Shown: one piece after another, positions 49,635 through 64,000 of the stretch
Position numbering within the stretch: the stretch's first letter is position 1
How the letters are laid out: every line of letters begins with the position of its first letter
NCBI RefSeq assembly: GCF_020510685.1
Contig: NZ_CP075185.1
Coordinates: 1,674,001 to 1,738,000, forward strand
Direction: 5' to 3'
DNA: 64,000 nt
Origin: Dechloromonas denitrificans
Lineage (GTDB): Bacteria; Pseudomonadota; Gammaproteobacteria; Burkholderiales; Rhodocyclaceae
The notes under the pieces: generated by a model
The model's input: only the letters and a program-made list of their open reading frames with translations
What the model was told of the DNA's origin: nothing
Databases searched by the model: none
Made by a program: the position numbers and the translations under genes

Positions 49635-51182
49635 CTAGAGCGGTATCAAACCGTGCTTCTTATGCGGCCGGGGCACGCGCTTGATGCGCAGGTACTCAAG
49701 CGCCTGGGCGATATGCTGGCGGGTCAGGGCGGGTTCGATGACGGCATCGACCAGCCGCTGTTCGGCGGCGACATAGGGGTTGGAGAAAGTGTCGCGATAA
49801 CTGGCGATCAGCTCGGCCCGCCGTTCCTCCGGATTGGCCGCCTCGCCGATCTCCTTGCGGAAGACGATCTCGGCTGCGCCTTCGGCACCCATCACGGCGA
49901 TTTCGGCGGTCGGCCAGGCGAACACCCGGTCGGCATCGAGATCCTTGCCGCACATCGCGAGGTAGGCACCGCCGTAGCTCTTGCGCAGGATGATCGTGAT
50001 CTTCGGCACGGTCGCCGACGAATAGGCGAAGAGCAGCTTGGCGCCATGGCGGATGATGCCGCCGTACTCCTGCTCGACGCCCGGCATGAAGCCCGGCACA
50101 TCGACGAAGGTGACGAGCGGAATGTTGAACGCGTTGCAGAAACGGATGAAGCGCGCCGCCTTGGTCGACGCATCGATGTCGAGCACGCCGGCCTTGACCG
50201 ACGGCTGGTTGGCGACGATGCCGACCGAGGCGCCGCACACCCGGGCAAAGCCGACGACGATGTTCATCGCATGGCCGGCCTGGACTTCGAGGAAATCGGC
50301 CTCATCGACGATCGCCGCGATCACCGTCCGGACGTCGTAACCCTGCTTGCTTTCCTCGGGCAACAGCGTTTCGAGCAGCGGATTGGCTTCGATCAGGTAA
50401 TCGCCCTCGACCAGCGGCGGATCTTCGAGATTATTGGCCGGCAGGAAGGCGAGCAGTTTGCGACAGAGCGCGATGGCGTGCTGATCGTCGTCGGCGATGA
50501 AGTGGATGACCCCGGAGTGCACCATGTGCGCATCCGGCCCGCCGAGTTCCTCGGCGGTGACGCTCTCGCCGGTGACCTGCTTGATGACCTGCGGCCCGGT
50601 GATGAACATCTGCGCCTGGCGGGTCTGGATGATGAAGTCGGTCAGTGCCGGGCTATAGGCCGCGCCGCCGGCGCACGGCCCGCAGATCAGCGAGATCTGC
50701 GGCACCGCGCCGGAGAGCAGCACGTTGGCGTGAAACACCTTGCCGTAACCGGACAGCGAAGCGATCCCTTCCTGTACCCGGGCGCCGCCGGAATCGTTGA
50801 TGAAGACGAAGGGCGAGCCGGTCTTCAGCGACGATTGCATGATCTCGGCGACCTTGATCGAATGCGTCTCGCCGGCCGAACCGCCGGCCACCGTGAAATC
50901 CTGGCTGGCCAGATGGACCAGCCGGCCGCCGACCGAGGCCGCGCCGGTGATCACGCCATCGGCGGCAAAGACCTTGTCGGCCATGCCGAACAGCGTCGCG
51001 CGATGCGTGGCGAACTGGCCGACTTCCTCGAAGCTGTCGGCATCGACCAGCGCGGCGACCCGTTCGCGGGCGGTCAGCCGGCCGGACTGGCGATGCTTCT
51101 CCTGCTTCTCGGCGCCGCCGCCGAGGGCATTCACCGCGCGGCGGCGGCGCAGTTCGGCAATCTTCTCTTGCATGGTGCTCAT
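49635..51182 (-). CDS. Acyl-CoA carboxyltransferase subunit (methylmalonyl-CoA transcarboxylase 12S-like)
   Basis: A 515-residue carboxyltransferase of the crotonase-fold family. It has the two acyl-CoA/biotin oxyanion regions (GGARVQEGIASLSGYG with CGPCAGGAAYSPALTD; and FVDVPGFMPGVEQEYGGIIRHGAKLL with SYGGAYLAM). Length and motifs match 12S and the alpha subunit of methylmalonyl-CoA decarboxylase and PccB. Substrate could be methylmalonyl-CoA or propionyl-CoA. With the 5S-like gene upstream the best reading is a transcarboxylase moving a carboxyl group between methylmalonyl-CoA and oxaloacetate. Confidence 0.9.
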   Translation of the reverse strand: MSTMQEKIAELRRRRAVNALGGGAEKQEKHRQSGRLTARERVAALVDADSFEEVGQFATHRATLFGMADKVFAADGVITGAASVGGRLVHLASQDFTVAGGSAGETHSIKVAEIMQSSLKTGSPFVFINDSGGARVQEGIASLSGYGKVFHANVLLSGAVPQISLICGPCAGGAAYSPALTDFIIQTRQAQMFITGPQVIKQVTGESVTAEELGGPDAHMVHSGVIHFIADDDQHAIALCRKLLAFLPANNLEDPPLVEGDYLIEANPLLETLLPEESKQGYDVRTVIAAIVDEADFLEVQAGHAMNIVVGFARVCGASVGIVANQPSVKAGVLDIDASTKAARFIRFCNAFNIPLVTFVDVPGFMPGVEQEYGGIIRHGAKLLFAYSSATVPKITIILRKSYGGAYLAMCGKDLDADRVFAWPTAEIAVMGAEGAAEIVFRKEIGEAANPEERRAELIASYRDTFSNPYVAAEQRLVDAVIEPALTRQHIAQALEYLRIKRVPRPHKKHGLIPL

Positions 51183-51194
51183 GGTTCGTCCTGT

Positions 51195-52697
51195 CTATTC
51201 GCTGACCGGCGTCACCGAGACCCGGTGCGAGCGGCCGTTCAGTTTGACGTCGTAGGTGATCGGGCTGCGCAGCGGGGCCGCCTCGCCGGCCGGGCTGCCG
51301 GCCGGAGCGGCGGGCGGCGCCGGGTCGACGCCGAGGTTCTTCGGGCCAAGGGCGCGGCTGGCGAAGAAACCGGGGGCGACCTGCGGGAACATCGCGTAGG
51401 TCAGGACGTCTTCTTCGCTGCCGTCGCAACCCGGCAACGCTGTCGCCGCAGCCTGCAGGGCGCCCCACTCGGGTTGCAGCAGATCGGCCGGGCGCTGTTC
51501 GATGGGCGGCTTGTGGGCGTGCTGTTCGGCCAGGGCGAGGACCGCCGGGTCGCGCTCGCCCGGTGCCTGGCCGTAATAGCCGAGCATCAGGTCGGCGAAT
51601 TCGCTGGACATCACTTTGTAGCGGCCCATCAGCACATTGAACACGGCCTGCGTCCCGACGATCTGGCTGGATGGCGTGACCAGCGGCGGAAAGCCGGCAT
51701 CCTCGCGGACCCGTGGCACTTCGACCAGAACCTCATCGAGGCGGTCTTCCGCCTTCTGCTGCTTGAGCTGGCTTTCCATGTTGGAAATCATGCCGCCCGG
51801 GATCTGGCTGTCGAAGATGTCGGTCTCGACGCCGTGGATGTTCGACATGAAGGCCTGGTAGCGCGGCCGCAGGGCGGCGAAGTGATCCTTGATGCGATGC
51901 AGGCAGGCCTTGTTCAGGCGGGCTTCGTAGCCGGTGCCGTCGAGCATGGCGACCAGGCTCTCGGTCGGGTTGTGGCCGGGGCCGAGGCTGAGCGAGCTGA
52001 TCGCCGTATCGACGCAGTCGGCGCCGGCTTCGATGGCTTTCATCAGGGAAACCAGCGTGACGCCGGTCGTCGCATGGGTATGGACATGAATGCGCACGCC
52101 CTCACCGCAGCGCGTCTTGATGCCCTTGACGATGTCGTAGGCCGGCTGCGGCTTGAGCAAGGCGGCCATGTCCTTCAGGCAGATCGAATCGCAGCCGAGG
52201 TCGACCAGCTGTTCGGCCATTGCGACGAAGGTTTCGGTGGTGTGTAGCGGACTGACCGTGTAGCAGATCGTCCCCTGGGCATGTTTGCCGTTGCGGCGTA
52301 CCGCCTGGACCGAATGGCGGATGTTGCGGATGTCGTTGAGGGCATCGAAGACGCGGAAGACATCCATGCCATTCTCGGCTGCCTTGTCGACGAAGCGGTC
52401 GACCACGCCGTCCTCGTAATGCCGGTAGCCGAGCAGGTTCTGGCCGCGCAGCAGCATCTGCAGCCGCGAATTGGGCAGCAACTTGCGAAAGACGCGCAGC
52501 CGTTCCCACGGGTCTTCGTTGAGGAAGCGGATGCAGGCGTCGAAGGTCGCGCCGCCCCAGCATTCGACCGACCAGTAGCCGGCCTGGTCGATGTCGGCGC
52601 AGGCCGGCACCATGTCGGCCAGCGCCATCCGGGTCGCCAGCAGACTCTGGTGCGCGTCGCGCAGGCACAGCTCGGTGATGTCGATTGTTTTGGTCAT
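51195..52697 (-). CDS. Oxaloacetate/pyruvate carboxyltransferase (transcarboxylase 5S-like)
   Basis: A 500-residue HMGL-like carboxyltransferase. The metal site is seen in RDAHQSL and HVHTHATTG, and the carbamylated Lys in CLKDMAALL. Other conserved stretches are FDALNDIRN and HIPGG-type DSQIPGGM. The length matches 5S (about 505 aa), and the C-terminal biotin domain of OadA is absent; instead a separate biotin protein is encoded downstream. It should convert oxaloacetate plus biotin to pyruvate plus carboxybiotin or the reverse. It starts the operon. Confidence 0.9.
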   Translation of the reverse strand: MTKTIDITELCLRDAHQSLLATRMALADMVPACADIDQAGYWSVECWGGATFDACIRFLNEDPWERLRVFRKLLPNSRLQMLLRGQNLLGYRHYEDGVVDRFVDKAAENGMDVFRVFDALNDIRNIRHSVQAVRRNGKHAQGTICYTVSPLHTTETFVAMAEQLVDLGCDSICLKDMAALLKPQPAYDIVKGIKTRCGEGVRIHVHTHATTGVTLVSLMKAIEAGADCVDTAISSLSLGPGHNPTESLVAMLDGTGYEARLNKACLHRIKDHFAALRPRYQAFMSNIHGVETDIFDSQIPGGMISNMESQLKQQKAEDRLDEVLVEVPRVREDAGFPPLVTPSSQIVGTQAVFNVLMGRYKVMSSEFADLMLGYYGQAPGERDPAVLALAEQHAHKPPIEQRPADLLQPEWGALQAAATALPGCDGSEEDVLTYAMFPQVAPGFFASRALGPKNLGVDPAPPAAPAGSPAGEAAPLRSPITYDVKLNGRSHRVSVTPVSE

Positions 52698-52959
52698 ATG
52701 CAGCTCAATTCCTCAACGGGCACAGCCAATGGAGCGTTCTGGCGCTAGATGGGCCAGTATGCACCGCGGATCGGCAAGATGCCAACGGCCCGCTTTCCCG
52801 GGCGGCGAGCCCGGATTGCTCGGCGGATAAGCTTTCCGGGATAAGGCTAGGGCCGGCCAGATTGCGAAAAGTTCTTTTTATCGGTTCGTCGGGAATTGAT
52901 TCATGATTGCGCGGTCAGACGCGCTCTGCTTTCACCATCAACCATCCAAGGAGTTCTCG

Positions 52960-53463
52960 ATGTCCCAATCCGTAACGCTGGGCGGCAATCCGATCGAAGT
53001 GGCCGGAGTCTTGCCGGCGAAGGGCGCCACGGCGCCCGATTTTTCGCTGGTCGGCAAGGATCTGGCCGATGTCACGCTGGCCAGCCTGGCCGGCAAGCGC
53101 AAGGTTCTGAACATTTTTCCGAGCATCGATACGCCGACCTGCGCCACCTCGGTCCGCAAGTTCAACCAGTCGGCCAACGAACTGACCAATACCGTCGTGC
53201 TGTGCATTTCGGCCGACTTGCCGTTCGCCCAGAACCGTTTCTGCGGCGCCGAAGGCCTGGCCAATGTGCAGACGCTATCCACCATGCGCGGCCGTGAATT
53301 CCTCGACGCCTACGGTGTCGCCATCAAGAGCGGGCCGCTGGCCGGTGTTGCGGCGCGTGCCGTGGTGGTGCTCGACGAAAACAACAAGGTGTTGCATAGC
53401 GAGCTGGTGTCCGAGATCAAGAACGAACCGGACTACGCCCCGGCCCTTGCTGCCCTGGCCTGA
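52960..53463 (+). CDS. tpx: Thiol peroxidase Tpx
   Basis: A 167-residue atypical 2-Cys peroxiredoxin. The peroxidatic Cys lies in TPTCATSV near residue 60 and the resolving Cys in NRFCGAEG near 94. The conserved Thr/Ser and Arg around them are present. It reduces lipid and organic hydroperoxides with thioredoxin. AAGGAG precedes the ATG. A strong hairpin follows the stop codon. Confidence 0.96.
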
Positions 53464-53476
53464 TCGCCTCCGCCCG

Positions 53477-53521
53477 GCGCCAAATCACCTTTGCCGGGCA
53501 ACCGGCCAGGTGATTTGGCGC
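53477..53521. terminator. Hairpin after tpx
   Basis: Perfect 14-base arms (GCGCCAAATCACCT at 53477-53490 and its complement at 53508-53521) separated by 17 bases, 14 bp after the tpx stop and just before the HD-GYP start. There is no clear U-run, so termination may be Rho-assisted or the structure may protect mRNA ends. Confidence 0.55.
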
Positions 53522-53535
53522 TAATCTCTCGCTCA

Positions 53536-54909
53536 ATGAGCAAGCTCTCTTCCCCCGCCGCGCTTTCGCCGGTCATGTCGGGCCTCAAGCTGTCCGAACT
53601 GATTTCGGCTCTCAGTCATGCGCTGGATATCACCGAAGGCCAGCCGGAAGGGCATTGCGTGCGCTGCTGCTGGATCGGCATGCATATCGGCCGGACCATC
53701 GGGCTTGATGAAGATGCCCTGTGGGGTCTCTATTACACGCTGCTGCTCAAGGATCTCGGCTGCAGCAGCAATGCCGCGCGTATCTGCGAGTTGTATCTGA
53801 CCGACGACCTTGCCTTCAAGCGCGATTTCAAGACGGTCGGCGACAGCCTGCCGCAGGTGCTCAATTTCGTGCTCAAGCACACCGGCCTGAAAGCCGGCCT
53901 GGCCGAGCGCTTTCGTAGTGTCATGACGATCATGCGCGACGGCAGCGAGATCGCCCGGGAACTGATCGCCACGCGCTGCCAGCGCGGGGCCGAAATCGCC
54001 CGCCTGCTGCGCTTTCCGGAAACGGTGGCGGCCGGCATCTACAGCCTGGATGAGCATTTCAACGGCCAAGGCAAACCGGCAGGGCTTTCCGGCGAGGCGA
54101 TTCCATTGTTTTCGCGGATCGCGCTGCTCGCTCAGGTCATCGATGTTTTCCACACGGCCGGCGGGCCGCAGGCGGCGCTCGATGAAATCGGCCGGCGTTC
54201 CGGCCGCTGGTTCGATCCCCATCTGGTTGCGGCATTCGGCACGGTTGCGGAAAGCGACGCCTTCTGGGCGACGCTGGCGTCGCCGGAAGTCACCGCCGCC
54301 ATCCTCGAACTGGAGCCGGCTTCCCACGTCGCCGAACTGGACGACGACTATCTCGACGACATCGCCGCTGCCTTCGGCCAGGTGGTCGACTCGAAAAGTC
54401 CCTACACCAGCGGCCACAGTGCGCGCGTCGCCCTCTACGCCGACATGATCGCCGAGACGCTTGGTCTGGCGCCCGAACGCCGGCGCTGGCTGCAACGCGG
54501 CGCCTTGTTGCACGACGTCGGCAAGCTCGGTGTCAGCAACAGCGTGCTCGACAAGCCGGGCAAGCTCGACGCCGACGAGTGGGCGGCGGTGCAGGCGCAC
54601 GCCATGTACACCGAGACCATCCTGGCGCGCATCGAATGTTTCGCCGAGTTGGCCAGGGTCTCGGCGGCGCATCACGAGAGGCTCGACGGCAAGGGCTATC
54701 CGCGCGGTTTGCCGGCCGCCGAGATCTGCCTGGAAACCCGCATCATCACGACCGCCGATATCTTCGACGCGATCACCGCCGAGCGTCCCTATCGCGGAGC
54801 CGTACCGATCCCGAAGACGCTCGAGATGATGGCCGAGAACGTCGGTACGGCTATCGACGAACGTTGTTTCGCAGCTCTCAAGCAGGCGCTCGACCGCCAG
54901 CCGGGCTGA
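53536..54909 (+). CDS. HD-GYP domain c-di-GMP phosphodiesterase with degenerate N-terminal HD repeat
   Basis: A 457-residue cytoplasmic protein. The C-terminal half (from about residue 290) is an HD-GYP domain with HDVGKLGV, HHERLDGKGYPRGL and ITTADIFDAITAERPYR, all catalytic elements present, so it should hydrolyse c-di-GMP. The N-terminal half (residues 15-230) looks like a second HD-type repeat with GHCVRCCWIGMHIG, LLKDLGCSS and DEHFNGQGKPAGL, where the key residues are altered. Such tandem layouts act as sensor plus catalytic units. The ATG at 53536 lies 14 bp past the hairpin. Confidence 0.88.
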   Translation: MSKLSSPAALSPVMSGLKLSELISALSHALDITEGQPEGHCVRCCWIGMHIGRTIGLDEDALWGLYYTLLLKDLGCSSNAARICELYLTDDLAFKRDFKTVGDSLPQVLNFVLKHTGLKAGLAERFRSVMTIMRDGSEIARELIATRCQRGAEIARLLRFPETVAAGIYSLDEHFNGQGKPAGLSGEAIPLFSRIALLAQVIDVFHTAGGPQAALDEIGRRSGRWFDPHLVAAFGTVAESDAFWATLASPEVTAAILELEPASHVAELDDDYLDDIAAAFGQVVDSKSPYTSGHSARVALYADMIAETLGLAPERRRWLQRGALLHDVGKLGVSNSVLDKPGKLDADEWAAVQAHAMYTETILARIECFAELARVSAAHHERLDGKGYPRGLPAAEICLETRIITTADIFDAITAERPYRGAVPIPKTLEMMAENVGTAIDERCFAALKQALDRQPG

Positions 54910-54968
54910 TTCCCCCGTAAAATACGGTTTTTCTGAATTCCGGCCCGTCCGGACAAGGTCTCTACTGC

Positions 54969-56291
54969 ATGAATACCATTGAAAAAGTGCCGACTGTCGG
55001 CTTCGTCAGCCTGGGTTGCCCGAAAGCCGGCAGCGACGCCGAGCGTATCCTGACCAAGCTGCGCGCCGAAGGCTACGAAATCTCCCCGAGCTACGAGAAT
55101 TCCGACCTCGTCATCGTCAATACCTGCGGCTTCATCGATGCCGCCGTCGAGGAATCGCTCGACGCCATCGGCGAGGCGCTCAACGAAAACGGCAAGGTCA
55201 TCGTCACCGGCTGCCTGGGCGCCAAGGGCGATATCGTCAAGACGACGCACCCGTCGGTGCTCGCCGTCACCGGCCCGCATGCCGCCGACGAGGTGATGGG
55301 CTATGTCCATCAGCACCTGCCCAAGCTGCACGATCCGTACAGCGATCTGGTGCCGCCGCAGGGCGTCCGCCTGACGCCGGACCACTTTGCCTACCTGAAG
55401 ATTTCCGAAGGCTGCAACCACAGCTGCACCTTCTGCATCATCCCGTCGCTGCGCGGCCCGCTGGTCTCGCGGCCGGTCGGCGACGTGCTGGCCGAAGCGG
55501 AAAACCTGGCGCGCGCCGGGGTCAAGGAAATCCTGGTCATTTCGCAGGACACCTCGGCCTACGGCGTCGATCTGAAATACCGCACCGCCTTCTGGGGCGG
55601 CAAGCCGGTCAAATCGCGCCTGAAGGAACTGTGCGAGGCGCTGGCCAGCTTCGGCATCTGGGTCCGTTTGCACTACGTCTATCCGTATCCGTCGGTCGAC
55701 GACGTGATTCCGCTGATGGCCGAAGGCAAGATCCTGCCTTACCTCGACGTGCCGTTCCAGCACGCCAGCCCGAAGATTCTCAAGGCGATGAAGCGTCCGG
55801 CCTCGGCCGAGAACACGCTGGAACGCATCGCCAAGTGGCGCTCGATCTGCCCGGAAATCGTCATCCGTTCGACCTTCATTACCGGCTTCCCCGGCGAAAC
55901 CGAAGAGGATTTCGACCAATTGATCCAGTTCCTCGAAGACGCCAAGCTCGATCGCGTCGGCGCCTTCGCCTACTCGCCGGTCGACGGTGCCAAGGCCAAT
56001 GAGCTCGAAGGCCTGCCGCCGGAAGAGGTGCGCGAAGACCGCCGGCGCTGGCTGATGCAGGTCCAGGAAGATATCAGCGCGGCCAAGCTGGAAGCCAAGA
56101 TCGATACGGTCATCGAAGTGCTGGTCGATGCGGTCGATGAAGAAGGCGTCGTCGCCCGTTCCAAGGCCGATGCCCCGGAAATCGACGGTCTGGTCTATAT
56201 CGACGGCTTCTTCGACGCCGAACCGGGCGACTTCCTGCAGGTGCGCGTCACCGATGCCGATCACCATGACCTCTACGCCGAGCCTGTCTGA
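54969..56291 (+). CDS. rimO: Ribosomal protein S12 methylthiotransferase RimO
   Basis: A 440-residue radical SAM enzyme that adds a methylthio group to Asp89 of ribosomal protein S12. The N-terminal UPF0004 domain supplies three cluster Cys ([26 protein letters not shown]), the SAM cluster motif is [10 protein letters not shown], and the C-terminal TRAM domain ends [12 protein letters not shown]. The [17 protein letters not shown] segment separates RimO from MiaB. All ligands are intact. The next gene overlaps its 3' end by 26 bp. Confidence 0.95.
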
Positions 56292-57663
56292 ACAATTGGT
56301 TGGGATCGTCGGGGCGGCTTACGTCCTGACCGATCCGGCCGAGCTCGCGCCTTTCCTGACCGACTGGCGCGGCCGCTATCACGGTCGCGCCCAATGCGTG
56401 GTCCGCCCGGCCGATGCCGGCGAAGTCGCCGCCGTGGTCAAGGCCTGTGCCGCGGCCGGCGCGCCGATCGTCGCGCAGGGCGGCAATACCAGCCATTGCG
56501 GCGCGGCAACGCCGGACGAGGCGGGGCAGGCGGTGCTGCTCAGTCTGTCCCGGCTGAACCGCATTACCGCGGTCGACCCGCAAAACAACACGATTTCGGT
56601 CGAAGCCGGCTGCACGCTGGCCGCCGTGCACGAGGCGGCGCGCGCCGTCGACCGGCTGTTTCCGCTGGCTCTGGCTTCCGAAGGCAGTTGCCAGATCGGC
56701 GGCAACCTGTCGACCAATGCCGGCGGCGTTCAGGTGCTGCGCTACGGCAACACCCGCGAACTGACGCTCGGCATCGAAGTGGTGTTGGCCAGCGGTGAAC
56801 TCTGGAACGGCCTACGCGGCCTGCGCAAGGACAACACCGGCTACGACCTGAAGCAGCTGTTCATCGGCGCCGAAGGCACGCTCGGCATCATCACCGCCGC
56901 GGTCCTGAAGTTGTTTCCGCTGCCCAAGCGGCAGACGACTTGCTGGCTTAACGTGCCGTCGCCCAGCGCGGCGGTCGATCTGCTCAATTCGGCGAAGGCG
57001 GTTTTCGATGCCCAGCTGACCGCTTTCGAGCTGATTTCCGACGTCTCGCTCGGGCTGGTGTTGAAGAACATTCCCGAATCCACCCGGCCGACGGAAAAAA
57101 GCCCGTGGTACATCCTGGCCGAGTTTTCCGAGGCCGATCCGGCCGCCGTCGAAAACTGGCTGGCGGCGCGACTGGAGCGGAATGAGGTCGGCGACGCCGT
57201 GCTCGCCCAGTCCGACAGCCAGGCGAAAAAGCTGTGGGCCCTGCGCGAGAACATTTCGGAAGCGCAGAAGATCGAGGGCATCAGCATCAAGCACGACGTT
57301 GCGGTGCCGGTATCGCGCATTCCCGAGTTCCTGGCCTGGGCTGATGCGGCGCTCAACGCGGCCTTCCCGGGCATCCGCGTCGTTGCCTTCGGGCACGTCG
57401 GCGACGGCAACCTGCACTACAACCTGTCGAAGCCAGATGCGCTCGACAACACCGCCTTCATCGCCTGCCAGCCCGCCGTCAATCGCCTGGTGCATGACAC
57501 CGTGCATGCGCTGAACGGCTCGATTTCGGCCGAACACGGCATCGGCCAACTGAAGCGCGAGGAACTGCTGCGTTACAAAAGCCCGGTCGAAATGGCCATG
57601 ATGCGTACCGTCAAGCAGGCGCTCGATCCGCAGGGCCTGATGAATCCCGGCAAGATTCTCTGA
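56266..57663 (+). CDS. FAD-linked oxidase (D-2-hydroxyacid dehydrogenase/GlcD type)
   Basis: A 465-residue flavoprotein of the VAO family. The FAD-binding part contains [32 protein letters not shown] and [10 protein letters not shown]; the cap domain has [11 protein letters not shown] and the C-terminal [12 protein letters not shown]. This matches D-2-hydroxyglutarate, D-lactate and glycolate dehydrogenases. The substrate is not resolved. The start at ATG 56266 overlaps rimO; upstream frame in rimO is not real. It is the last ordinary gene before the integron cassette array. Confidence 0.9.
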
Positions 57664-57869
57664 ATATCGGGCAATTCAAGGAAAACGGAGTCCGGAGGGC
57701 AACTGGCTGAGTTCGTCGCGACACCATGAAACCATGGCGAAGTTATCCCCAAGGCGGTGTTTCGTATTGACACGCAGAATTGACCGCAGGTTGGGCGTCA
57801 ACTTCTATGGCGGGTTGGTGCCCTTTGCGGACGTAGCTAAATTTGAAAAGCAGTCATTCAGGAACGTAG

Positions 57870-57946
57870 AGCTAACCGGCGCTGCGCGGCTTTATCGCGC
57901 AGCGTCCAGCAACCGAAGGGGAGCACGGTTGAGCGCCATGTTATGG
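57870..57946 (-). other. attC site 1 (end of cassette A)
   Basis: On the minus strand the site opens with CCATAAC and closes with GTTAGCT (plus-strand AGCTAAC at 57870). It contains a strong inner hairpin (GCTGCGCGG against CGCGCAGC). Its first box is complementary to the beginning of cassette A. Confidence 0.72.
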
Positions 57947-57947
57947 C

Positions 57948-58439
57948 TCATTTTGGTTTCGTACTGCTTTCTTCTTGAGCGGTGATTAGCCCATCCTGAA
58001 CAGTAAAGACCAAGTATTGCTCAAACTCCGACTCATAGCCCATGTGCACATATCGCAGACGCTTGCCACGAGGAACAACAAGTTTTCCCGTGTACCACTC
58101 CGCGTGGACAGGCCCGGTGGCACCGGGAAAGAAGATAGAGAGTGGAATCTGCTCCGGCGATTCTCTGCATGGGTTCGCTGCGAGAGACCTTAGATAGAGT
58201 TTCTTATCTAGAATAAACCATCGACCTTGATACCTTCGCCATGACCCAGTACATACGTCTTGTGCAAATTTCTCCAGTTTGGAAATTTCACTCTGGTTGT
58301 TAACCAAATAAATTGTGAACGGCTCGGAAAAGAGACTTTGCTCCACGCCATCCAATTCGATCAATTCCGGTATTTGGGCTGTGGCATAGGAGCAGCGGGT
58401 TACAAGTAGCAAGAGAGCGAAGAGAAAGGCGCGTGTCAT
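57948..58439 (-). CDS. Cassette A: exported protein of unknown function
   Basis: A 163-residue protein with a clear signal peptide (MTRAFLFALLLLVTRCSYATA). The mature part is about 140 residues with two further Cys and aromatic-rich segments (YLVNNQSEISKLEKF, RYQGRWFILDKKLYL, GYESEFEQYLVF). No family recognised. The start codon lies one turn after the attC joint (GTTATGGCTCAGGAATG) and the TGA abuts the next attC, so the gene exactly fills its cassette. Base composition is clearly lower in GC than the flanking chromosome. Confidence 0.8.
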   Translation of the reverse strand: MTRAFLFALLLLVTRCSYATAQIPELIELDGVEQSLFSEPFTIYLVNNQSEISKLEKFAQDVCTGSWRRYQGRWFILDKKLYLRSLAANPCRESPEQIPLSIFFPGATGPVHAEWYTGKLVVPRGKRLRYVHMGYESEFEQYLVFTVQDGLITAQEESSTKPK

Positions 58440-58446
58440 TCCTGAG

Positions 58447-58518
58447 CCATAACGTTGAAAATCACCGGACGGCAAAAAGCGCAGGTTTTTGACGAACAGG
58501 TGGATTGTGGTGTTGGGC
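58447..58518 (-). other. attC site between cassettes A and B
   Basis: Plus-strand CCATAAC at 58447-58453 and GTTGGGC at 58512-58518 bound a 72-bp site with complementary inner arms (ATCACCGGACGG... facing ...CAGGTGGATTG). Confidence 0.85.
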
Positions 58519-58525
58519 GTAGATG

Positions 58526-58867
58526 TCATGGAGATAGCCAATGGGCAGTATGAATGACTTGGTTTTTGTCGTTGAACTCAACCGACCATGCCTGAATGCC
58601 CTTGAGCACAGGATGCTCCCACCACGCTCTGAATACACATGGTGTATTACAGGCTTGGGATGGCATGGCATAGCGTAGAAATGGTTGAGTAGGACGCTCA
58701 ATGACACTTGGCTTGCCGAAGCGCTCGACTACAAGAGAGTACGGGTCTCCATTGGCGGTAGCCTCGAAGGCTTGCTCGTACCGAGACACGATGTATGAGC
58801 AAGCCGCCACTCCCGCAATAGATATTGCCAATAGCGATAACGCAATAAGTTTCGCGGGGGTTTTCAT
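58526..58867 (-). CDS. Cassette B: putative lipoprotein
   Basis: A 113-residue protein starting MKTPAKLIALSLLAISIAG with a lipobox VAAC, so a predicted lipoprotein. The mature part begins SYIVSRYEQAFE and contains GDPYSLVVERFGKPSVIERP, a pattern similar to the SmpA/BamE-like fold, and a Cys pair (QACNTPC). The function is unknown. The ATG is 3 bases past the GTTGGGC box and the stop lies 7 bases before the next site. Confidence 0.78.
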   Translation of the reverse strand: MKTPAKLIALSLLAISIAGVAACSYIVSRYEQAFEATANGDPYSLVVERFGKPSVIERPTQPFLRYAMPSQACNTPCVFRAWWEHPVLKGIQAWSVEFNDKNQVIHTAHWLSP

Positions 58868-58870
58868 GAT

Positions 58871-58937
58871 GCCCAACGTTGTAAATCACCGGCCTGCGCA
58901 GCTTTTTGCGCAGGTCGCCTCGAACGCAGGGTTAGAC
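58871..58937 (-). other. attC site between cassettes B and C
   Basis: GCCCAAC at 58871-58877 and GTTAGAC at 58931-58937 with an inner hairpin CCTGCGCAGCTTTTTGCGCAGG. Length 67 bp. Confidence 0.87.
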
Positions 58938-58966
58938 CTATTGTGCATAAGCGGAAGCCCTCAATT

Positions 58967-59269
58967 CTAGAGGTTGGCGATGATCTTTTTCACTGTTGGC
59001 TCCCCCCATTGTTTTGGGTGCTTGATTTGTACCCGACCACCATTGCCAATTTTTTCTGCCAACTCGGCAAGGCTCTTTGCGTGACGTTCTGACCAAGAGT
59101 TGGCAATTGCCAAGGAATAGACATCTTCGTAGGACAATGGCACGCTATGACCATGCAATGCCTTGAATAGCTCTTTCGCACGCGACTCGTCTAATGGGTG
59201 AGCGAGCCCGGTTGATGTATTTACTACCACCGAGAGAGTTTCAACTGCTTTCGTGAGGATTGGATTCAT
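58967..59269 (-). CDS. Cassette C: hypothetical cytosolic protein
   Basis: A 100-residue soluble protein (MNPILTKAVETLSVVVN at the start), largely helical, ending VKKIIANL. The middle (SYEDVYSLAIANSWSERHAKSLAELAEKIGNG) resembles a DNA-binding helix-turn-helix region only loosely. No family assigned. It occupies most of its cassette. Confidence 0.72.
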   Translation of the reverse strand: MNPILTKAVETLSVVVNTSTGLAHPLDESRAKELFKALHGHSVPLSYEDVYSLAIANSWSERHAKSLAELAEKIGNGGRVQIKHPKQWGEPTVKKIIANL

Positions 59270-59291
59270 GGCTGGGCGAGAGGATGAATAG

Positions 59292-59364
59292 GGTTAACCG
59301 TTGAAGCTCACCGGACGGCGGACAGCGAAGCTGGCCGACGGTCCGGTGGAGCGGATTGTTGGGC
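59292..59364 (-). other. attC site between cassettes C and D
   Basis: GGTTAAC at 59292-59298 and GTTGGGC at 59358-59364. The inner arms CTCACCGGACGG and CGGTCCGGTGGAG pair almost perfectly. Length 73 bp; the clearest site of the set. Confidence 0.9.
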
Positions 59365-59377
59365 GTAAAAGCTGGTG

Positions 59378-59722
59378 CTATTGGCACAAATGGCCTCTTT
59401 TTCGCGAGTGAAATGGGGGCTGGACATGAAGCCAGCGGTTTACCTCGGGCGACGAAAGAGCAAAAGGGCTGCGCTTTATTGGGCGCTGGGTCAGCAACTG
59501 TGGAACCGGCCCAAAAGTGCGCTCGCAAAAGGCTGCTGCGCGCAATGACACCTGGCTCCAAAAGAAGTAGCTGCCGCTACCAGATAACTTTGCGGCTTTG
59601 GCTTTGTGAGCCGCCTTGCTGACAGCGAATTTCGCCCAGTACTCGTGCTGTGACCAAAAATAGCGATGCCACCAGTTTTTCTGGCTTCCTCGCCGATTGT
59701 GTTTAATGACCTCGAATCTCAT
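59378..59722 (-). CDS. Cassette D: hypothetical protein, odd composition
   Basis: The 114-codon frame starts at an ATG three bases after the GTTGGGC box and stops 13 bases before the next site, so placement supports a real cassette gene. The product is basic and aromatic (GSQKNWWHRYFWSQHEYW) and the second half looks less protein-like (RPIKRSPFALSSPEVN), so a frameshift in the 3' half is possible. Function unknown. Confidence 0.5.
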   Translation of the reverse strand: MRFEVIKHNRRGSQKNWWHRYFWSQHEYWAKFAVSKAAHKAKAAKLSGSGSYFFWSQVSLRAAAFCERTFGPVPQLLTQRPIKRSPFALSSPEVNRWLHVQPPFHSRKRGHLCQ

Positions 59723-59725
59723 GAC

Positions 59726-59791
59726 GCCCAACGTAGAAGTGAGCGGCCTGCGCGCCTTTTAGCGCAGGTCCGCTCGACTGCCGGGTTGGGC
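59726..59791 (-). other. attC site between cassettes D and E
   Basis: GCCCAAC at 59726-59732 and GTTGGGC at 59785-59791 with inner hairpin GCCTGCGCGCC-TTTTA-GCGCAGGTC. Length 66 bp. Confidence 0.88.
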
Positions 59792-59806
59792 GTAACCACG
59801 GTTGTG

Positions 59807-60286
59807 TTACGCAAAGTACTTCTTGATGCACTCATACTCTGCGTTGCCTGAAACGATTAGGGATTCCTCGAATGATTCTGCGAGTATCTCGTGGAAGACA
59901 TCATGGTTGGAAACAACAAAATGCCGACCTCTAGGCTTAAGCGGTGAGTTGGCATATGTGTAGGCGTTGTGAGCTTCAATGGGCCATTTTGAATCGGTCA
60001 GTTCGACGAGAAAGCTATCTCCCGGGTTGCTTGGGTATATCCCTATCGCAGGACTGCAATCAGTACTGGCGCTGCGAACACTTCTTGCGCCTTCAAACTT
60101 TAGCTTGACGAATGAAGGCGTCGTTTGCTCACCTTCGGCAAGCAGAAAAACTGAACATTCCTGGCTTGAGTAGATAAGAACAGCGTCTTCGATATGGTCA
60201 TGCTGATATTGCAGAGCAATTGCGATTCCAGATTTCATCTGTCGTTCCGCCCCGTTGTAAAGATGAATCTGCTCAACCAGCGGCAC
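59807..60286 (-). CDS. Cassette E: hypothetical protein
   Basis: A 159-residue protein from GTG 60286, about 15 bases after the GTTGGGC box; an ATG at 60238 (MKSGIAIALQYQ) is an alternative start that gives 143 residues. No signal peptide. Segments such as AVLIYSSQECSVFLLAEGE and DSFLVELTDSKWPIEAHNAY suggest a beta-rich fold. No family recognised. The stop lies 15 bases before the next attC. Confidence 0.7.
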   Translation of the reverse strand: MPLVEQIHLYNGAERQMKSGIAIALQYQHDHIEDAVLIYSSQECSVFLLAEGEQTTPSFVKLKFEGARSVRSASTDCSPAIGIYPSNPGDSFLVELTDSKWPIEAHNAYTYANSPLKPRGRHFVVSNHDVFHEILAESFEESLIVSGNAEYECIKKYFA

Positions 60287-60300
60287 GTTCCACGATTGAC

Positions 60301-60348
60301 GCCCAACAGTTATTCAACGGACCCACCGGTCCGCATATTGATAATCAC
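60301..60348 (-). other. Degenerate attC- or attI-like site at array head
   Basis: GCCCAAC at 60301-60307 is followed by an inner palindrome CGGACC-CACC-GGTCCG and partly matching outer arms (GTTATTCAA facing TTGATAAT). The far box is decayed (no GTTRRRY). It could be the truncated attC of a lost cassette or a remnant of the array's attI. Confidence 0.5.
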
Positions 60349-60787
60349 AAAACATCGAAATTCCAAGTAACTGATTGATTCATTTTGGGGCGACTCCGGC
60401 AAACTGTCCGCATATGCAATGATAGTACGGAGCGGCGAAAAGTCGGTATGCCGACGACAAGAAGGTTCTGGCGAATGGCAGCTATTGACCAGTTTCTTGA
60501 AGGACAGCTCCTGGCCGGGAGCACCGGTTCGCGCAAGCGATCAATAAATGCATAAATACGACCGCGATCATGAACGACGTTGACCGACATCAAGCCTGCG
60601 ATTTGACATTCCAGTAGTGTTCCCACTGGCAAACTCGACTGAAAAGCGGGGACGCAAAGCTACCGGTCCTCTGACGGCATCAGGTCAAAGACAGCGGGGC
60701 TGCCAAGTACCTCTTGTGCTTGAACGTTCTCCATCCGTCAGTTGCGAACCTGCCTCTTACGAGCAACACCAACTGAGCAGATGTCCC
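60349..60787. other. Non-coding stretch upstream of cassette array
   Basis: About 440 bp of lower-GC DNA with no convincing gene, no integrase fragment and no tRNA. A 95-codon minus frame crosses it but lacks a ribosome site and coding bias. It separates the array from the HD-GYP-like gene on the plus strand. Confidence 0.5.
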
Positions 60788-62074
60788 ATGAGTGCATTCA
60801 ATAGCGTAAACAACCACTGCCTCGGCAAGATCATGGCGTTGACCGAGACGACCGATGTGGTTGCATCGGACGATATCTACGACAGCCAGGGGGTGAAGTT
60901 GTGGGCCAAAGGTGGGAAGATTTCCGCCTGCCTGCAGGAGCGACTAGCCAGTCGCAAGTTGCGGACGCCGCTCGAACTCACCCTGGAGGTTGAGAACGGC
61001 ATTACCACCGGTGACGTGGCTGACGATTGCCAGAAGCTCATTCTGGCCAACCCGATCCTGTGCCATCTCTCCAGTAACAAGGCGGCCCTGGCGGCCCTCT
61101 CACATCTGCGCCTGGTTCGTTTGCCAAGCGCCCTGAAGCTGCTGCTGGCCGCGGCCTACGACAACCGTGGCACCCATGAGTACAAACATGAGTTGCACAC
61201 CATCGCGCTGTGCGCCGGTTTTGCGGCGTATGCCCAGCTCTCGTCCCTGGATACCGAACTGTTGCTGAGTGCGGCATTGCTGCATGACCTGGGAGTCCTC
61301 TACGTCAACCCTGATTTGCTCCACTCATCCCGGCAGTTGACGGCCAAGGAGTGGGCCTCGGTGGCGGTTCATCCGAAGGTCAGTCACATGGTTGCGCTGG
61401 AAATCGGCAAACTGCGCGATGAGGTGGGCCAGGCGATTGGCCAGCATCACGAGCGGCTCGATGGCAGTGGTTATCCCTTCATGCTGACCAAGGAGAGGAT
61501 TTCTCCGATCGGTTCGATCCTGGCGGCCGCCGATGCCATGGCTGCAATCATAGAGCGCGGCGGGGAAGGGGCGGCCAATAAGGCGACGCTGGCGATCCGG
61601 CTCATTCCGGAAGAATTCGACCCGGTACTCAAGACATACATCTGCACGTCGCTGCGGGACTTGGCTGCACCGTTCGGCCACGGCGACCAACCTTGCTATG
61701 AGCAGACCCGTGACGTCGTGTGCAAACTCGATCAGGTTGAGGCGAAAGTGGGAGAACTCCTGCAGAGCGCTGCGGGCAAGGTGCATGATCTTCTGAAGAT
61801 GGCCGGCAATGTCTGCCACAACGTGCGCAAGGCGCTGCGAGCCACCGGGGTGGATTTCCTGCTGCAAAGCTATACCCCTGGCGGCGAGGGTGCATTTTGC
61901 GGCGAGGTCTATCACATCGTCCATGAGACCGGCTGGCGCCTGCGCAATATCTCCCGTACGCTGCAGTTGCGGGCGGATGCCCTGGCATTGGATGAACAGG
62001 CATTCCTGGCGCCGTTGATCTCCATCCTGGAGTGGACTCCGGACACTCCGCAAGAAACCTTAGTGGCTCCTTGA
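60788..62074 (+). CDS. HD-GYP-like protein with altered HD motif
   Basis: A 428-residue cytoplasmic protein. The HD motif reads LLHDLGVLYV, where active HD-GYP enzymes have HDxGK, so the Lys is missing; HHERLDGSGYP is intact. An N-terminal region (residues 1-110) and a helical C-terminal region (residues 270-428) flank it. It may be a weak phosphodiesterase or a c-di-GMP/other-signal receptor. The start at ATG 60788 gives the coding part; the upstream frame is not supported. It lies right beside the cassette array. Confidence 0.75.
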   Translation: MSAFNSVNNHCLGKIMALTETTDVVASDDIYDSQGVKLWAKGGKISACLQERLASRKLRTPLELTLEVENGITTGDVADDCQKLILANPILCHLSSNKAALAALSHLRLVRLPSALKLLLAAAYDNRGTHEYKHELHTIALCAGFAAYAQLSSLDTELLLSAALLHDLGVLYVNPDLLHSSRQLTAKEWASVAVHPKVSHMVALEIGKLRDEVGQAIGQHHERLDGSGYPFMLTKERISPIGSILAAADAMAAIIERGGEGAANKATLAIRLIPEEFDPVLKTYICTSLRDLAAPFGHGDQPCYEQTRDVVCKLDQVEAKVGELLQSAAGKVHDLLKMAGNVCHNVRKALRATGVDFLLQSYTPGGEGAFCGEVYHIVHETGWRLRNISRTLQLRADALALDEQAFLAPLISILEWTPDTPQETLVAP

Positions 62075-62126
62075 TGCTGCTTGGGTTGTTGTCGTGATAA
62101 ATCCCGGCAAGATACCCTGAGGCGCT

Positions 62127-62606
62127 TCAGAACTTGCCGCTATCCAGGGTGGCGGTGATCTCCGGCGTGACCCGGTCGAAAGCCAGGATCCGCTTGCCCT
62201 TGTGATCCTTCAGGAAGTCGTCGGCATCCGCCTGGCTGGCGAGCGGCACGAGTTCATGGCCCATCGGTCCGAGCACATCGGAACCGATGACATACAGCGC
62301 CTTGCGCGCATCCATCCGTTCCAGATTGTAGAAATCGGTGACGTGGATGCCGGCTATGTCTTCCTTGCGATGATTCGGCGCGTACTTGGGCAGATCGTGC
62401 AGGAATTTGAACATGTCTTTGGAACCGTCGAAGAAGTGGGCGTGCCCATCCTTCCATACGACGATGGCAATCCAGTTCGGATACTTCGAAACGATCATGC
62501 CGCAAACCGGGCAGAGGTCTTTCGGACCCGGTTTGGGTGCGGTCTGGGCAAAGGCCGGCGCGACGCAGAAGGCGAGGCCGGCGATGACGAAATGACGCCG
62601 CTGCAT
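62127..62606 (-). CDS. NosL-family protein
   Basis: A 159-residue exported protein with a Tat-like start (MQRRHFVIAGLAFCVAPAFA) and the NosL metal-binding signature CPVCGMIV after the signal peptide. NosL-type proteins bind Cu(I) and help nitrous-oxide reductase or other copper sites. Its ATG overlaps the stop of the upstream NosL-like gene by one base, so they are translated as a pair. No nos genes are in the window. Confidence 0.85.
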   Translation of the reverse strand: MQRRHFVIAGLAFCVAPAFAQTAPKPGPKDLCPVCGMIVSKYPNWIAIVVWKDGHAHFFDGSKDMFKFLHDLPKYAPNHRKEDIAGIHVTDFYNLERMDARKALYVIGSDVLGPMGHELVPLASQADADDFLKDHKGKRILAFDRVTPEITATLDSGKF

Positions 62607-63208
62607 CAGCCCTGCTTCTGCTGCATGGCGCGCTTGCGGCGCTCTTCGCGATTCTTGCGGATCATGCTGGCATCGCTGGCCATGTCGAGATAGGACTCGC
62701 GCAGCGCGTCGTCGAATTTGGCCAGCGTGCCGCCATGTTTCGCCTGGAATTCCTTGGCGATGTCAGCCGAGGCAAAGGAGTGCTTGCTGCGCTTGGTCAT
62801 TGCGTGCTTGAGATCGGCACCGATCAGGTAGAGCAGTTGATCGACCGGCAGCAGCGGGCGCGGCTCGATGTTTGAGCCGTAATCCGGTCCCCAGATGGTC
62901 TTCGGTTCGCGGTCGATGTTCAGGCTGAGGCTGAGCGACAGGCAGTGAATCGAGCAGGTGCCGTCGACCAGATCGTCGGAATACTGGACCAGCATGCGGG
63001 TACGGTGATGTTCCTTGCGGTCCATGCCGCAGTAGGGGCATTTCGGATATTTGGCGAGTTCGTTGTCCAGCGGCTTGCTATCGGCGGCTGTTTTCGGAAT
63101 GAACTGGTTCGGCGTGCCATCGGTGGTGCAGGCATTGGCGCTGACCTGTGTCGAGGTGGCGGCGAAGCCGGCGAGTGCGGAGATTTTGAGAAGATCGCGG
63201 CGTTTCAT
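62606..63208 (-). CDS. NosL-like exported protein, larger partner
   Basis: A 200-residue exported protein starting MKRRDLLKISALAGFAAT (Tat-like, RR) with a NosL-type motif CPYCGMDR and a Cys/His pair in TCSIHCLSLS. The C-terminal third is charged and helical. It is longer than standard NosL. The start at 63208 follows AGGAAGAG. Likely a copper-binding partner of the smaller NosL protein. Upstream frame extends into a decayed gene and is not part of it. Confidence 0.8.
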   Translation of the reverse strand: MKRRDLLKISALAGFAATSTQVSANACTTDGTPNQFIPKTAADSKPLDNELAKYPKCPYCGMDRKEHHRTRMLVQYSDDLVDGTCSIHCLSLSLSLNIDREPKTIWGPDYGSNIEPRPLLPVDQLLYLIGADLKHAMTKRSKHSFASADIAKEFQAKHGGTLAKFDDALRESYLDMASDASMIRKNREERRKRAMQQKQG

Positions 63209-63288
63209 TTTTCTCTTCCTGTGGCTGTTTGGTAGCTTCCAAATATTAGCGCTCGATGATGTGTCGGCGCTGCGGCAAAGTGTCGCAG

Positions 63289-63560
63289 TCAGCCCCGCAG
63301 CCTCGGCGCGATCTTGCCGAACCGCACGAAGGCCGACAGCATCGAGGGCAGCATGCCGGCACCGAAGGCCAGCATCAGTAGGCCGCCCTCCAAGAACGAG
63401 GGCTCCTTGGTCGCTTTGACGGCCTGCGCCATGGTCATCGCCAAACCGTACGAAGAAGGCGGAAAACAGCCCGCCGCACATACCGAGGCAATGGCCGCTG
63501 CCGAGCGGTTCGGTCATGAAGGCGAGCCAATAGGAAACTCGGCGATGGCTTGGTGGTGAC
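63289..63560 (-). pseudogene. Decayed TauE/SafE-type membrane transporter gene
   Basis: On the minus strand the segment begins with the family's N-terminal signature GSGHCLGMCGGLFSAFF and later shows the C-terminal-type text LLMLAFGAGMLP in a different frame, ending at TGA 63289. About 75 codons remain of a family that is normally 220-260 residues, so there has been an internal deletion plus a frameshift. It once encoded a TauE/SafE (DsbD-like) membrane protein, the type found next to copper/cytochrome biogenesis genes. Confidence 0.7.
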
Positions 63561-63753
63561 TGTGGTCAATAACGACGAGACTGCCAGACAAGCGGCTGCT
63601 TGATCACGCGGACTAGGCAAATTCGGCGAAATCGCCCGATGACAATTGCCTGACCGACCGGCTGTGCGTCAATTAGCCGCACGACCAAGGTGGTAATTGC
63701 TTCTAGAATCGCCGCCTTAAAAACAACCCTGTCCAGGTTGCCGTCAGCATTTC

Positions 63754-64000
63754 ATGGCCAGCGCAATTACCTGTCTTTATATCGAACACATCGGTGAAAT
63801 CCGGCGTTTTCTGGCGCGCCGGATTTGCTGTGTCGAGGCCGCTGCCGAACTGGCGCACGAGGTCTTCATCCGCTACATGGTTGCCGCGCCAGCCTCGCCG
63901 ATCGAGAACCCGCGTGCCTTTCTGTTCCGGATCGCCGGTCATCTGGCGACCGACCATTTTCGGGCCAATCCGGTCAAGGCGGGGCAGTGGGTCGATATTG
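63754..64000 (+). CDS. ECF sigma factor, FecI type (3' end outside window)
   Basis: The frame from ATG 63754 is open to the window end (82 codons). It contains sigma region 2: FLARRICCVEAAAELAHEVFIRYM and PRAFLFRIAGHLATDHFR. It is closest to the FecI-like sigma factors. No Fur box as clear as the one at 12.8 kb was found upstream. A FecR/TonB receptor pair is expected downstream, outside the window. Confidence 0.8.
   Translation, partial: MASAITCLYIEHIGEIRRFLARRICCVEAAAELAHEVFIRYMVAAPASPIENPRAFLFRIAGHLATDHFRANPVKAGQWVDI

Follow-up and report, generated by a model that had tools for sequence, protein, structure and literature searches.

The stretch of DNA considered here (hereafter the window) comprises bases 1,674,001-1,738,000, that is 64,000 nucleotides, of the 4.62-Mb single-contig genome of Dechloromonas denitrificans. 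On its minus strand it carries an integron cassette array without an adjoining integrase gene. Five cassettes of 421-588 bp each run from position 60306 down to 57865. They are preceded by a conserved leader resembling an integron attachment site (attI) and by a further 5' module, and are followed by a short tail. The limits of this unit were set by alignment to another unit that is present twice in the same genome, the identical part extending from CGGCCA to GGGCACA; similarity to several leader copies from other genomes also ends at 60517. The initial annotation had placed the array at 57870-60348, which covers its core and misses the outer parts. The features, with open reading frames given as ORF, are as follows.

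57817..60517, minus strand, whole unit (5' module, attI leader, five cassettes and tail), from boundary comparisons
60436..60517, minus strand, 5' module, begins with CGGCCA; the window copy is a profile seed
60300..60435, minus strand, attI-like leader core (model R2) with hairpin GCGGACCGGTGGGTCCG; the window copy is a model seed
59732..60306, minus strand, cassette C1, 575 bp; ORF 59807-60286, 159 aa, no family match
59724..59793, minus strand, attC of C1, 71.9 bits (seed)
59298..59731, minus strand, cassette C2, 434 bp; ORF 59378-59731, at most 117 aa, no family match
59290..59366, minus strand, attC of C2, 67.9 bits (seed)
58877..59297, minus strand, cassette C3, 421 bp; ORF 58967-59269, 100 aa, DUF1889
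58869..58939, minus strand, attC of C3, 53.1 bits (seed)
58453..58876, minus strand, cassette C4, 424 bp; ORF 58526-58876, at most 116 aa
58445..58520, minus strand, attC of C4, 72.2 bits (seed)
57865..58452, minus strand, cassette C5, 588 bp; ORF 57948-58436, 162 aa, no family match
57860..57948, minus strand, attC of C5, the last site, 43.5 bits (seed)
57817..57864, minus strand, tail TTCCTGAATGACTGC..GTCCGCAAAGGGCACC, abutting the last attC; the window copy is a profile seed

Cassettes and attC sites

The attC covariance model was built from 13 seed sites of the window and the rest of this genome. The initial annotation had suggested such a model as a check, and low scores did not occur: the five minus-strand sites of the window score 43.5-72.2 bits, although these scores are not independent, as all five are among the seeds. 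No further attC was found in the window by this model at E<=1 with filters off. In the alignment of the 13 sites, five of the seven predicted pairs of the inner helix vary on both sides with pairing kept. The start of each cassette matches the complement of its own R'' box in 8-10 of 10 bases (10 of 10 for C5). For every cassette start, none of the other four boxes fits better than its own, the ties being due to three boxes with the same GTTGGGCGTA. Taken directly as they are, the five sites match in 9, 6, 6, 5 and 4 of 10 bases, which is what would be expected with R' being part of the next cassette. The attC sites have R and L boxes and lie between compact genes, which start and stop near them. 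This is confirmed as a genuine integron cassette array.

The cassettes also recur elsewhere (genomes and DNA stretches used in comparisons are denoted by G and L numbers). In G052, which belongs to another species, C4 (1-424 of 424 bp, 88% identity) is directly abutted by C2 (1-433 of 434 bp, 95%). The order differs, as the window has C2 before C4 with C3 between them, whereas in G052 C4 comes first. Exact units are thus shuffled, which is the behaviour of cassettes and not of a conserved gene block. The C4-C2 pair of G052 lies inside a complete integron with a long array, 18 attC matches in 11 kb (stretch L306). C4 is also present in G008 (78%), and a part of C3 in G004 (69%), with three candidates scored per genome. 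Sites similar to the attC of C5 (72-100% over 45-106 bp) were found in many genomes of the genus among the matches listed. The array as a conserved unrearranged segment, which the initial annotation had named as a reason to doubt it, was not found in any of the 76 genomes of the genus, where single cassettes recur in other settings.

Conserved leader

The approximately 210 bp preceding the first cassette are a conserved leader with the end ..AATAACTG|TTRGG. In the window it ends with ..GAATAACTG|TTGGGCG, the crossover falling between 60307 (G) and 60306 (T). A 91-bp leader query has strong copies in other genomes, most of which end at the crossover and are followed by differing first genes; L057 and L061 match the leader in its left part only. 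The leader core model R2 (12 seeds, E<=0.01) finds it in 34 of the 76 genomes of the genus, and in 40 of 297 sampled genomes of the family, representing 18 of 68 genera. An exact-pattern scan of contigs from GTDB yielded 15 stretches with the leader pattern, in records assigned to Rhodocyclaceae, Rhodocyclales, Dechloromonas, Zoogloea, Azospira, Gallionella or Gallionellaceae, and to unresolved Beta-, Gamma- or Proteobacteria. On plasmids or viral contigs, neither an exact-pattern scan nor a blastn search with the leader gave a match.

The leader conservation ends at the crossover. In a profile of the copies that agree with an AAC..GTT anchor (59 of 100), the letters of which are forced, unforced columns hold 0.6-1.6 bits at -8, -6 and +3 to +6, falling to about zero from +11 on.

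The surroundings of 100 of the 104 leader copies, up to 5 kb on each side, contain 110 attC matches (57 + 33 + 20) at E<=0.1, two sites being counted twice because L128 and L145 overlap. Almost all, 106 of 110, lie downstream on the leader strand; two are upstream on the same strand, two upstream on the other strand, and none downstream on the other strand. At least one downstream attC is present at 55 of the 100 leaders, the first of them 207-1887 bp from the leader. Of the four exceptional sites, one comes from an array neighbouring L145 and two from a divergent second array in L182 (G179), where two leader-headed arrays point away from each other. The sole exception without an explanation is in L198 (G229), at 2155-2344, where a partial leader is preceded, at a distance of 61 bp, by an attC on its own strand.

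This genome has five leader copies by model R2. The model missed the unit present twice, in which the leader was recognised by eye, and there are therefore at least seven leaders. Another leader-headed array of this genome (L008, 17920-19160) starts with two cassettes that look by eye like HEPN-type and PIN-type proteins.

Several other readings of the leader were rejected. It is not a feature of the neighbouring HD gene, as it recurs in other contexts. Nor is it a known RNA: a search of window positions 50000-64000 against Rfam at E<=1 gave only a c-di-GMP-I riboswitch. A consensus scan found no promoter in the leader. An inverted copy of the whole leader downstream of the arrays, suggested by an early idea of a palindromic structure, gave no match, and shorter end profiles were used instead.

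The leader as a candidate attI

The single integrase gene intI of this genome above the family cut-off (465.5 bits, 1,416,922-1,417,860) has its own attI and array and is 314 kb away from the window array. No intI adjoins the latter, in line with the initial annotation, which saw none in 3.7 kb on the head side, and the array is not a complete integron. The attI region of this distant integrase is dissimilar to the leader by eye and has no R2 match, so that the leader was rejected as the attI of the genome's own integrase. When 150 of 3608 first-look candidates in this genome were scored with the attC model, 28 matched: 12 in the main array plus one reverse-strand reading, five in the window and ten at six further places, the nearest of these about 21 kb from intI. 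The tail profile also matches the far end of the main array (29 bits, 1389182-1389252).

A different integrase was found beside the leader in other genomes. A divergent intI starts 89 bp from the leader core in G147 (391 bits), and another lies 83 bp from it in G193 (374 bits). The two integrases share about 72% identity, against about 49-50% with the IntI of this genome (IntI-A), and are therefore called IntI-B; their best plasmid relative is 54.8% identical, and the class 1 IntI1 49.2%. The integrase of the complete integron in G052 (C7:106806-107747) shares 68% identity with IntI-A and 50-53% with IntI-B. The position 83-89 bp from intI in two genomes, together with the common end G|TTRRRY, leads us to regard the leader as the putative attI family of the IntI-B lineage. 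Its core AATAACTGTTRGG resembles attI1 AAACAAAGTTRRRY and attI2 AATAAAATGTTRRRY of class 1 and class 2 integrons (cores from a section of PMC12901181), and in G147 and G193 the leader is likewise adjacent to intI. Unlike these sites, however, the leader occurs in several copies per genome, nearly all without intI.

Indeed, an IntI-B gene or its remnant lies beside only four of the 100 leaders, L184, L196, L180 (at a contig edge) and L134 (decayed). The other 96 show no IntI-B trace, although the DNA examined was short for some of them. G147 has five leaders, one of which is accompanied by intI. Among the 34 leader-bearing genomes of the genus, 12 lack intI at E<=1e-60. Five of them are less than 90% complete, but the single-contig genomes G014 and G022 are rated complete.

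Ends and copies of the unit

The 5' module was found at a fixed place in 70 of the 100 leader copies at the lenient threshold E<=1, 26 of these being seeds. All 70 belong to the 96 orphan leaders, and none to the four leaders with an intI gene or remnant. A clean TCGGCCA..AGCGG start is seen in 40 copies. The tail follows directly past the last attC; it scores at least 20 bits downstream of 55 of the 100 leaders (32 of 77 when the 23 seed loci are excluded), with four placements elsewhere. At 72 of the 100 leaders there is an attC or a tail. The tail is absent from all four intI-linked leaders. Control DNA of 344 kb contains three matches to the tail profile above 25 bits, namely one known unit each in this genome and in G056, and the end of the main array in the former.

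One unit of this genome, with two cassettes, occurs at two unrelated places, 1,219,439-1,221,226 and 2,983,386-2,985,173, in opposite orientation and 1.76 Mb apart. The copies are 99.6% identical over 1788 bp (7 differences), from CGGCCA of the module to GGGCACA of the tail. This concerns the sister of the window unit and not the window copy itself.

In a subgroup of units each end is extended by an additional 90-110 bp or so, beginning with TGCGGAATATC. Eight long-ended units with both ends were compared; duplications of 5-6 bp are seen in L154, L164, L148 and L107, which contain the leader, and in L250 and L256, which do not, and the duplication in L251 is one base off. The 2031-bp unit of L164 lies between the end of a gene and the start of a LysR-like gene, and it has an empty site: in the Dechloromonas genome considered here and in G009, G018, G003 and G027 the flanking genes are adjacent, with about 13 bases unaligned. 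The long outer ends match each other inverted, with E 6e-8 in L156 and weaker in L264, L148, L164 and L107. The window copy has no such ends, and since some other units do, it is probably an older unit.

Long ends without the leader enclose a two-partner secretion pair, sensor kinases, an AAA ATPase, a TIR-domain protein and a DNA methylase. These leaderless elements are listed by stretch.

L250, 4025-9779
L251, 3486-8516
L252, 3834-4919
L256, 2439-4792
L261, 15491-16885
L267, 10618-14055

In L257 (15747-17219) a DDE transposase in two reading pieces (DUF772 and DDE_Tnp_1) lies beside a long left end. The same DNA occurs in L254 and L258, and the surrounding 7.4-7.8 kb are 99.97% identical in the three genomes.

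In the right flanks of 42 units, position +12 is G in 34 and position +14 is C in 35, with variable bases between. Alternate flank bases tend to be conserved (on the right A+8, C+10, G+12 and C+14), even where the two 99.6% identical copies (L314 and L315) differ between them. This could reflect a target preference.

Genomic setting and cassette genes

Just beyond the edge of the array there is a c-di-GMP-I riboswitch (60.2 bits, Rfam) at 60618-60707 on the plus strand, upstream of a gene with an HD_5 domain at 60788-62074, also on the plus strand. Close relatives of this gene (88-89%) were found in G023 and G056 only, among the 76 genomes. The array, the riboswitch and the HD gene form a 4.46-kb stretch (57664-62126) that separates an FAD-oxidase gene from a NosL gene. 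In G062 the 4.46-kb stretch is absent and the FAD-oxidase gene directly adjoins the NosL gene. As this join also omits the HD gene, it cannot isolate the array as an empty site. G056 and G023 match the HD-gene region from 60546 and 60627 on, respectively, and the other flank is not common.

The initial annotation described the cargo as uncharacterised, which holds for C1, C2, C4 and C5: their proteins have no Pfam match at E<=1, C5 having been queried as a longer reading of 197 aa. However, the C3 protein (58967-59269) belongs to DUF1889 (PF08986, E 2.3e-15). It resembles the structures PDB 2ES9/2JN8, the solved relative being annotated only as a putative cytoplasmic protein. The cassette proteins gave nothing above the cut-off in NCBIfam and no match in PADLOC at E<=0.1. 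The C4 protein has a lipoprotein-like N-terminus by eye and a sub-threshold match to TUL4 lipoproteins (E 0.01), and the C5 protein has a signal-peptide-like start, also by eye.

Possible origins of the array

The initial annotation suggested a CALIN (a cluster of attC sites lacking an integrase) or a decayed chromosomal integron. A CALIN is defined in a passage of PMC9024848 by at least two attC sites and no nearby intI. The window array has both properties and is thus a CALIN by definition. It differs in beginning at a conserved attI, with a common 5' module and tail. These features and the sister unit in two copies leave the decayed-integron reading only partially valid. The origins of CALINs given in the relevant section of PMC8618304 are off-target insertion, intI loss and rearrangement.

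We consider it probable that the array belongs to a mobile non-autonomous element with an orphan attI, loaded in trans by an integrase encoded elsewhere. The unit consisting of the 5' module, attI, cassettes and tail, which encodes neither an integrase nor a transposase, would move as one piece. Gain and loss of cassettes at its attI would be due to an integrase encoded at another locus, in this genome 314 kb away; the cassettes common with an IntI-A-type array and attC sites of the same types suggest such loading in trans. Spread of the unit would depend on a recombinase or transposase acting in trans on its ends. For a wider version of this proposal, the chances appear evenly balanced: a whole family of mobile integrons with conserved ends and with neither integrase nor transposase may be spreading in Rhodocyclaceae, providing several docking sites per cell that are loaded in trans by a single integrase, even one from a different lineage.

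An ordinary CALIN formed by loss, in which the orphan leader is the remnant of a complete IntI-B integron with intI deleted in place, seems unlikely. The leader is the candidate attI of just such integrons, and in G020 the stretch L134 retains a decayed IntI-B gene beside the leader, so that plain loss of intI in place has happened at least once. However, 96 of the 100 leaders have no IntI-B trace in the DNA examined, the module stands at its fixed place in 70 of the 96 orphans and in none of the four intI-linked leaders, and two near-identical copies of one unit lie in unrelated contexts of the same genome. Still less probable is an attG-type off-target insertion, by which a distant integrase would have put cassettes into a dispersed repeat with a usable G|TT. 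The route is an accepted one according to a part of PMC12901181, and an intI above the family cut-off is available at 314 kb. Here, however, the target is not a non-classical chromosomal site: it belongs to the attI family of IntI-B integrons and has a consistent crossover, and the leader's location next to intI in G147 and G193 also speaks against such an insertion. A chance neighbourhood of attC-like hairpins and a repeat resembling repetitive extragenic palindromes (REP) can practically be dismissed. The inner ends do hold short AGCGG-type motifs like those of dispersed repeats, as seen by eye, but the confinement of 106 of the 110 attC matches to one side and strand of the leader contradicts this explanation, as do the exact cassette units, boundaries included, shared with the true integron of G052.

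Several observations weigh against a mobile unit loaded in trans. Besides the remnant in L134, neither an attC nor a tail was found within reach at 28 of the 100 leaders, some of them at contig ends. The missing tail of the intI-linked leaders is telling only for L184 and L134, as the arrays of L180 and L196 run near the end of the stretch. The two 99.6% identical copies show neither a flanking target duplication nor an empty site, and no clean empty counterpart of the window site was found. The long-ended L252, L106 and L111 show no duplication, so that one mechanism may not cover all units; the duplicated pair and the group with outer ends may move by different means. The inner ends are only weakly alike when inverted, 434 of 5000 shuffles scoring as high. 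A matching right end near the DDE pair of L257 was not found. No complete autonomous element was detected among the ORFs of 18 of the 20 regions inspected by eye, with ten proteins searched against profiles. To our knowledge, no transposase is known for these unit ends.

Known systems and implications

Integron mobilization units (IMU) and integrons flanked by miniature inverted-repeat transposable elements (MITE), the latter being Tn3-derived miniature elements, hold an integron or cassettes between two miniature elements. The unit considered here is similar in that non-autonomous ends carry integron material (for IMU, a section of PMC13367494), and differs in that attI and the cassettes are situated between two end regions of one unit, in chromosomes of Rhodocyclaceae. 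In mobile insertion cassettes, passenger genes likewise lie between ends with no transposase seen inside; other passengers are found here in elements that have these same outer ends. The difference is that the passenger slot is here an integron docking site. Searches of open-licence PMC papers found no description of an attI-bearing unit lacking both an integrase and a transposase.

The origin of integrase-free cassette arrays is not settled in print, and the present results suggest an additional route, by way of a mobile unit equipped with an attI of its own. If this is true, the integron of a cell would be spread over several sites, and attI would be separable from intI. Cassettes could then sit in genomes without an integrase, such as the 12 of 34 leader-bearing genomes noted above (five of the 12 under 90% complete). 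The leader would also supply an attI family for a second lineage of integrases, which is useful as attI sites beyond class 1 are poorly described, according to a passage of PMC9024848.

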